From Aneurinibacillus sp. Ricciae_BoGa-3 (GTDB lineage Bacteria > Bacillota > Bacilli > Aneurinibacillales > Aneurinibacillaceae): a stretch of DNA of 64,000 nucleotides. Shown here in pieces: positions 29,619 to 46,525 of this stretch (positions are counted from its first letter, which is position 1; every line of letters begins with the position of its first letter). Under the pieces are notes generated by a model that saw only the letters and a program-made list of their open reading frames with translations, ran no database searches and was not told the origin of the DNA. Both the position numbers and the translations under genes were made by a program. The stretch spans positions 3,040,001 to 3,104,000 of the forward strand of contig NZ_CP116887.1 of the NCBI RefSeq assembly GCF_028421645.1, written 5' to 3'.

Positions 29619-29712
29619 ACCTCGATTCACTCCCGCAACAAATTTTTTCGCTACTACTAACAGAAATATTTTTTCTATAAAAGGATGAAGTTATGTGCCG
29701 GATAATAAGAAT

Positions 29713-29973
29713 AAACACCGCGGACATGCCGCTCTGTCCTTTCCCGCAGAAGTTTTTTCGGCCGCTTTCTGTCACGACAGGCGGACCGGCAAAACATCCG
29801 GGTATCTCAATGATGGAGACAGGTTGCCAGTCTTTTTCGCCCTCTGTTCCAGACGCTCCACAGGGGGAAAGAAAGGAGCCGGCATTGCCCCGCGATGTTT
29901 TTCTTTAGCGTTTTGGGGACCATACGGTCCCCATTTAAGATGTAACAATTAACTTAACACTTTAAAGTAACAT
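29713..29973 (-). ncRNA. Structured RNA element, copy A (upstream of pdaA)
   Basis: A ~260-base element homologous to the one at 46153-46417. Read on the minus strand: a conserved 5' block (29973-29953), a hairpin GGGGACC/GGUCCCC (29932-29915), a long closing helix starting AAACAUCGCGG and ending CCGCGGUGUUU (29713-29723), an inner helix GACUGGCAA with UUGCCGGUC, and conserved unpaired purine-rich blocks. It ends about 95 bases before pdaA. Differences from copy B keep pairing on this strand (G-U replacing A-U or G-C, and one C-G to G-C exchange). The family is not recognised. Confidence 0.65.
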
Positions 29974-29991
29974 ATAATTTCTTTATCGATG

Positions 29992-30018
29992 AAAAATCCC
30001 CACTTGTAAAGTGGGGAT
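29992..30018 (-). terminator. Terminator after the aldo-keto reductase gene
   Basis: ATCCCCACTT and its perfect complement with a 3-base loop, then a T-run on the minus strand. Confidence 0.85.
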
Positions 30019-46083: not shown

Positions 46084-46152
46084 CTTTGATCCACACCTCA
46101 CATCCTGATCCTGTTTGTATCAGCTTATGCAGGCCTGTCTCCATCTATGTAG

Positions 46153-46417
46153 AAAAACATCGCGGGCCATGCCGCTCTCTCCTTTCCCCTCATAGAAGTT
46201 TTTACGGCCGCTTTGTGGAACGACGGTCGGACCGGCAAAATTTTTGGGTAACCCAATGATGGAGACAGTTGCCGGTCTTTTTCGCCCTCTGTTCCACACG
46301 CTCCACAGGGGGAAAGAAAGGTGCGGACATGTGCCTCGCGATGTTTTTCTCGGATGTTTGGGACCAGAGGTCCCTTTAAAAAAATCACTCAGGACACCTT
46401 AACACTGTGAAGCACAT
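46153..46417 (-). ncRNA. Structured RNA element, copy B (upstream of ylxY)
   Basis: The partner of 29713-29973. Minus-strand order: 5' block (46417-46398), hairpin GGGACC/GGUCCC (46374-46360), closing helix AAACAUCGCG with CGCGAUGUUU, GUGGAAC with GUUCCAC, GACCGGCAA with UUGCCGGUC, and apical UUGGGUUACCCAA. The closing helix is followed by UUUUU (46157-46153), so it could also end transcription. It finishes about 70 bases before ylxY. The internal CUGUCUCCAUC is the exact complement of GAUGGAGACAG (46145-46135) just downstream. Confidence 0.65.
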
Positions 46418-46479
46418 AAACCTTCGATATTACAAAAGACAAAGGAAACTATCGGTCCCCTTTTTCTTACTTAGATAAC

Positions 46480-46514
46480 AAAAAATAGCGACTGACTTTC
46501 GTCAACAATCGCTA
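46480..46514 (-). terminator. Terminator after pnp
   Basis: TAGCGA/TCGCTA stem with partly paired centre and six T on the minus strand. Confidence 0.75.
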
Positions 46515-46525
46515 TCTGTTGGTTT

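Follow-up and report, generated by a model that had tools for sequence, protein, structure and literature searches.

Results

Two copies of a structured repeat behind terminators

The window analysed here, a stretch of 64,000 nucleotides from Aneurinibacillus sp. Ricciae_BoGa-3, carries on its minus strand two copies of a structured repeat, one (copy A) between an aldo/keto reductase-like gene and pdaA, and the other (copy B) between pnp and ylxY. A first-pass annotation had described the segments 29713-29973 and 46153-46417 as homologous and as able to fold on the minus strand, and both observations hold: 231 of the 269 aligned columns are identical (86%), over ~283 bases, and the minus-strand folds are far more stable than those of shuffled sequences (z = -5.1 for copy A and -5.9 for copy B, with no shuffle equal to either). 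The real units nevertheless exceed the segments first delimited. From an alignment of 30 copies with their flanks, and from the upstream flanks of all copies, we placed copy A at about 29989-29707 and copy B at about 46432-46151. Each lies downstream of the terminator hairpin of the upstream gene (29996-30018 and 46486-46515, respectively), and the features of the two loci are as follows.

29661..29699, minus strand: segment GGCACATAACTTC..ATATTTCTG (also given as GGCACATAACTTC..TATTTCTG), similar in most pdaA orthologues
29707..29989, minus strand: copy A, whole unit (5' module plus rod), with the 3' end ..GTGTTTATTCTT and the 5' end CGATAAAGAAATTATATG
29707..29905, minus strand: copy A rod, a long imperfect hairpin AAGAAAAACATCGCGG..CCGCGGTGTTTATTCTT in the minimum-energy fold, whose P1-P3 helices are kept across genera
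29738..29868, minus strand: match of covariance model R1 within copy A (119.6 bits)
29790..29822, minus strand: copy A core loop CTGTCTCCATCATTGAGATACCCGGATGTTTTG, nearly invariant (columns invariant or nearly so in 26 family sequences)
29906..29989, minus strand: copy A 5' module, present upstream of the rod in most copies
29992..30018, minus strand: intrinsic terminator of the aldo/keto reductase-like gene (hairpin 29996-30018 with its T-run), which copy A follows directly
46151..46432, minus strand: copy B (5' module plus rod), covariance model match at 46181-46313 (135.1 bits)
46151..46351, minus strand: copy B rod, from the fold of copy B
46352..46432, minus strand: copy B 5' module, a conserved module with hairpin GGGACC-TCT-GGTCCC at 46360-46374
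46433..46470, minus strand: remnant of an earlier 5' module with hairpin AAAGGGGACCGATAGTTTCCTTTG, lying between copy B and the terminator of pnp
46480..46515, minus strand: intrinsic pnp terminator, made of hairpin 46486-46515 and a T-run, retained at the empty site of the nearest genome

The hairpin of the copy A 5' module (GGGGACC-GTAT-GGTCCCC, 29915-29932) has as its counterpart in the nearest genome, which belongs to the same genus and is called G001 below, a perfect 19-bp hairpin. The terminator in front of copy A (entry 3069705) has a folding energy of -14.3 kcal/mol, and its T-run starts 6 nt ahead of the element. The order of modules seen at the remnant beside copy B recurs in other copies.

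Copy number and range of the family

Copies A and B belong to a large family. On the 4.98-Mb contig that contains the window we chained at least 93 copies, a lower bound because copies were gathered by search. Short forms have a rod of ~200 nt within a unit of ~260-290 nt, and long forms, which carry extra hairpin arms added at two places, reach 340-450 nt in all. With a covariance model built on the central 132 positions, 5-90 copies per genome were found in 11 of 11 genomes of the bacterial family, while the four genomes searched from the sister family had none; Aneurinibacillus tyrosinisolvens is a named carrier. A survey of 400 Bacilli yielded matches in 13 genomes outside the family, from several families, the commonest group among them (f23) being putatively Brevibacillus-like. 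Phage, plasmid and viral collections held no copies of the element, and viral contigs scanned with PNPase and YlxY gave no matches. In two low-copy genomes (G005 and G008), cores occur in inverted pairs ~260-300 nt apart (L158, L159).

The element had been called unrecognised at first sight, and comparison with Rfam agrees: there was no match at gathering score over the window, and a loose search of copy A was also negative. No description of the repeat was found in a literature search that covered few of the subscription journals. We describe it as a structured mobile repeat of Aneurinibacillus relatives that targets terminators and had not been filed before; its core has relatives in other Bacilli.

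A fold maintained by paired changes

Covariation in further copies, which had been proposed as a check on the fold, proved very strong. Across genera (72 distinct sequences), 34 of 36 pairs have changed on both sides, and the covariation score is 0.538, against 0.176 +/- 0.007 in shuffled alignments and at most 0.128 when the helices are slid; this set was aligned to the model and is hence biased towards it, and a first set, aligned by sequence alone, agrees. The helices have been rebuilt by paired changes around a conserved loop, and the fold is therefore real. Three features stay constant: one side bears a bulge of 4-5 A-rich bases, a side hairpin follows AGCGGCCGT or AGCGGACAGT, and the tip is a loop of ~30 nt, YTGTCTCC..TACCCAGATGTTTTG.

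Which strand, and which nucleic acid, is under selection is a more delicate matter. The plus strand folds nearly as well as the minus strand (z = -4.6 for copy A and -5.5 for copy B), so folding energy cannot pick between them. At well-paired positions across genera, G-U cells outnumber A-C cells by 49 to 17, an excess that is clear against a 1:1 expectation (p = 1e-4) and borderline once the mutation bias of unpaired sites is taken as the reference (p = 0.056). Young copies show 62 G-U and 25 A-C cells, but unpaired sites share the mutational direction, and mutation bias accounts for much of the excess in both counts. As a general sign of RNA selection, the G-U excess is only suggestive. In the closing helix, three G-U positions are conserved, favouring minus-strand RNA, and selection on the RNA is likely. 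A promoter candidate in the 5' module (TTGCTT-18-TATACT, in G001) scores no better than shuffled sequence.

Insertion at a fixed place behind intrinsic terminators

What the sites of insertion have in common is an intrinsic terminator. In the genome studied, a strict intrinsic terminator lies just upstream of 52 of 84 copies, compared with 60 of 979 random windows; the upstream gene is co-oriented with the element in 82 of 93 copies. A convergent gene presents its 3' end to the element in 34 of 93 copies, and in ~25 of these 34 pairs the 3' end of the element falls within a few bases of the opposing stop codon. G001 shows the same rule in a younger population. Twenty-five copies there share 93-100% identity in pairwise comparison (median 98%), and practically every one comes after a hairpin and T-run, a pattern repeated by the 22 full copies in the 1.19 Mb surveyed, mostly whole large contigs. 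Of 28 starts, 22 pass the strict test, and in 16 of these 22 the T-run begins 5 nt ahead of the element; within 14 nt the controls give 19 of 799 random positions (2.4%) and 31 of 799 positions downstream of ORFs (3.9%). Insertion just after an intrinsic terminator, a trait of group IIC introns, is found in both genomes. One copy even stands in tandem directly behind the T-run of another (L270).

Target site duplications are absent (mean match 2.06, versus 1.83 for shuffled flanks, over 18 copies), and the point of insertion has no fixed tetranucleotide. Since some copies in more distant families lack a terminator just upstream (L201, L203), the choice of target is shown for Aneurinibacillus relatives only. 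The first-pass annotation had foreseen that random positions and orientations would point to a MITE; the positions do largely point to a mobile repeat, but, lying just 3' of terminators, they are not random. In two cases the spacer behind the same gene contains a different, divergent copy in the other genome: at G001:C2:86830-87310 and C2:118950-119420, spacers orthologous to element sites of the genome studied contain a divergent copy with the same core, and these seem to have inserted independently at one and the same landmark.

A second hairpin repeat, GTGCAACTAAGGC..GCCAAGTTTTCTTTA, also occurs after terminators (L061, L064 and L277 in G001) and is found nested inside rods, including those of long-form elements of the genome studied (e.g. 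L125 and L227); element copies are in turn inserted directly behind its T-rich end. A distant relative of the element (L202) has the same terminator hairpin (GAGGCAGGTGAGCAATCACCTGCCT) on both sides, resembling a large target duplication.

The neighbouring genes

The element had been proposed to act as a leader RNA or sRNA controlling a spore-cortex deacetylase, with recurrence before NodB-family genes named as supporting evidence. Both copies of the window do precede Polysacc_deac_1 genes of the same strand by ~50-90 nt, and their fold is strong. Seen across the family, the proposal fails. The genes downstream of the other copies are unrelated to these and are in the opposite orientation in 34 of 93 cases; none of the seven orthologous pdaA loci in the family genomes has the element upstream, although the segment adjacent to pdaA is similar there; G003 and G007 carry a copy on the far side of pdaA, 3' of the gene and on the other strand; and in the pnp-ylxY spacer of G001, an empty site, the pnp terminator is present without the element. 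With at least 93 copies so distributed, a role as cis-regulatory leader or as sRNA for pdaA and further NodB-family genes is scarcely credible, and for the family as a whole it is refuted. Because the loci contradict a leader role, we take the position of 2 of ~46 co-directional copies before NodB genes to be a coincidence. The segment 29661-29699, between the element and pdaA and outside the element, is the probable pdaA promoter region, and since it resembles the segment upstream of the orthologues, transcription of pdaA probably starts downstream of copy A. The place of copy A before pdaA is incidental, and it does not regulate this gene.

Discussion

The repeat described here forms a multicopy family with a covarying fold, a fixed spacing from terminators, an empty orthologous site and no target duplication, and we consider it highly probable that it is a small non-autonomous mobile element that targets terminators, with the folded single strand as its functional form. 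The 5' hairpin module and the rod with its conserved core loop would together constitute the mobile unit, which would insert co-directionally, a few bases past the hairpin and T-run of an intrinsic terminator. We infer that an enzyme acting in trans recognises the folded single strand, be it RNA or ssDNA, and the hairpin of the target terminator may be read by its shape, in the way that group IIC intron particles read theirs. The base of the rod carries A- and T-runs, with which the rod could itself end transcription in both directions; the cost of insertion to the host would be low because the target lies outside genes and because of this possible two-way termination. No coding capacity was found in the element, rod and module being devoid of a reverse transcriptase ORF. 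An autonomous version was not found either: copies with unpaired 5' or 3' ends are only truncated or internally deleted, and among the unpaired ends examined no copy has a long coding insert.

As to the enzyme, a reverse transcriptase in trans and a recombinase or transposase that processes ssDNA hairpins are equal candidates, each of them possible rather than probable. In the first case, a group IIC-type reverse transcriptase would use the transcribed, folded RNA as the template for new copies at terminators. Published work places the insertions of group IIC introns immediately behind rho-independent terminators (PMC8919778) and shows that their RNPs recognise a DNA stem-loop by its shape (PMC10190682). 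The genome studied contains ~8 near-identical group II intron copies, whose 5' junction, where read, is a hairpin with a T-run ending in A. The element shares with these group IIC-like introns its target class and, at one site, its position, an intron sitting directly between the terminator and element copy 1447712. The six genomes richest in copies all encode reverse transcriptases, a few 5'-truncated copies begin right at T-runs (L222-L224), and the slight G-U excess would suit an RNA intermediate. However, young copies are equally often truncated at the 3' end, G001 having six 3'-truncated and five 5'-truncated copies, and since 3' truncation is as common as 5', target-primed reverse transcription is not favoured; the excess of 5' truncation that would indicate it was anecdotal in the genome studied and absent from the wider survey of G001. 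No sequence link to the introns emerged, and group II ribozyme domains are absent, copy A giving no group II match at E up to 5 while intron controls do match. Furthermore, G005 and G008 carry copies, albeit few and divergent, without a reverse transcriptase, and the introns of G001 could not be demonstrated to be intact. That the element is a bacterial SINE, a structured ~260-nt noncoding RNA that spreads through chromosomes because the reverse transcriptase of resident group IIC introns copies it into intrinsic-terminator sites, is rather doubtful; if true, a parasite and a host element would share a single class of 'safe' target.

In the second case, either an HUH (Y1) transposase or a tyrosine recombinase would move the folded DNA strand, with IS200/IS605 derivatives and integron cassettes as the models. 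Hairpins near both ends, ends that are not inverted repeats, oriented insertion and the lack of target duplication all fit such a mechanism, as do the stability of the fold as DNA (z = -11.9) and the behaviour of helix P3, whose variation is almost wholly among Watson-Crick pairs. It is harder to reconcile with the single Y1 transposase gene of the genome studied, located on contig C2, and with the lack of a fixed tetranucleotide at the insertion point.

Whichever of the two acts, a non-autonomous element recognised as a folded single strand accounts for the insertions better than a classical MITE, with terminal inverted repeats, a cut-and-paste transposase in trans and insertions that survive mainly downstream of genes. 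We consider the latter improbable. The high copy number, the palindromic rod with its AGAAAAACATCG/CGATGTTTTTCT arms and the many internal-deletion derivatives that keep both ends are all reminiscent of MITEs, but the inverted repeats frame the rod only, and the 5' module belongs to the unit, which runs from (C)CGTTAAAG to TTTTTCTCA; the sequences at its very ends, CCGTTAAAG and TTTTTCTCA, do not form an inverted repeat. Insertion leaves the target unduplicated, and selection on random insertions would hardly produce the 5-nt spacing in 16 of 22 copies. A REP/RAYT palindrome was rejected, the only Y1_Tnp of the genome studied (contig C2) being unlinked to the copies.

Among known systems, the closest in behaviour are the group IIC introns, which likewise insert co-directionally right after intrinsic terminators and whose target is a DNA stem-loop plus a short pairing (PMC8919778, PMC10190682); the element differs from them in its unrelated ~260-nt fold and in having neither ribozyme domains nor a reverse transcriptase. 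The bcr1-bcr18 repeats of the Bacillus cereus group resemble it in being short, intergenic, multicopy, structured, mobile-like and confined to a lineage within the Bacilli (PMC6542083, PMC2267715), but their mobility is tied to a TTTAT motif (PMC6542083) and not to terminators, and it is by these descriptions that we set the element apart from them. SPRITE, BOX and RUP of Streptococcus pneumoniae are also small structured repeats, and SPRITE is enriched near the 3' ends of genes and is itself terminator-like; the portion of its description available to us has no insertion at a fixed distance 3' of host terminators, and the structure given there is unrelated to that of the element (PMC3049150). 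MRSC-65-2 and other mobile or repeat candidates consist, in the accessible part of their report, of a single long covarying stem present in dozens of copies per genome, MRSC-65-2 having UYCCGG repeats and, in that part, no terminator rule (PMC11109978), whereas in the element several helices form a bulged rod that carries a conserved 30-nt core loop. With MITEs and the palindromic elements derived from IS200/IS605 it shares being non-autonomous, hairpin-rich and multicopy, and it departs from them in that its ends are not inverted repeats, no target duplication is made and no matching transposase was found.

Intergenic positions are tolerated by most families of bacterial repeats, but the one described here seems to select its site by structure: it picks the hairpin and T-run of a terminator, with a precision of about one base. 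To our knowledge, a landing place behind a terminator, which is harmless, has so far been known mainly for group IIC introns, and the targeting of terminators now becomes the strategy of a second, unrelated kind of element. The family offers a tractable case for studying the recognition of hairpins, in DNA or in RNA, and G001 already supplies data for it in the form of dozens of natural, nearly identical insertions. Our results also advise caution on two counts: a covarying fold upstream of a gene does not by itself make a leader RNA, and counts that resemble RNA selection can partly be mutation bias.

The group II introns of the genome studied have a peculiarity of their own. In the intron at L253:1696-6643 (C1:1442695-1447642) and in ~7 further copies (L254-L260), which are >99% identical, the reverse transcriptase gene is split by a cassette of ~2.9 kb that encodes tyrosine recombinases (Phage_integrase domains). 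Since the split is at the same point in each of the ~8 copies, the interrupted intron seems to have multiplied as such. The reverse transcriptase halves are split likewise in a further genome (G009).
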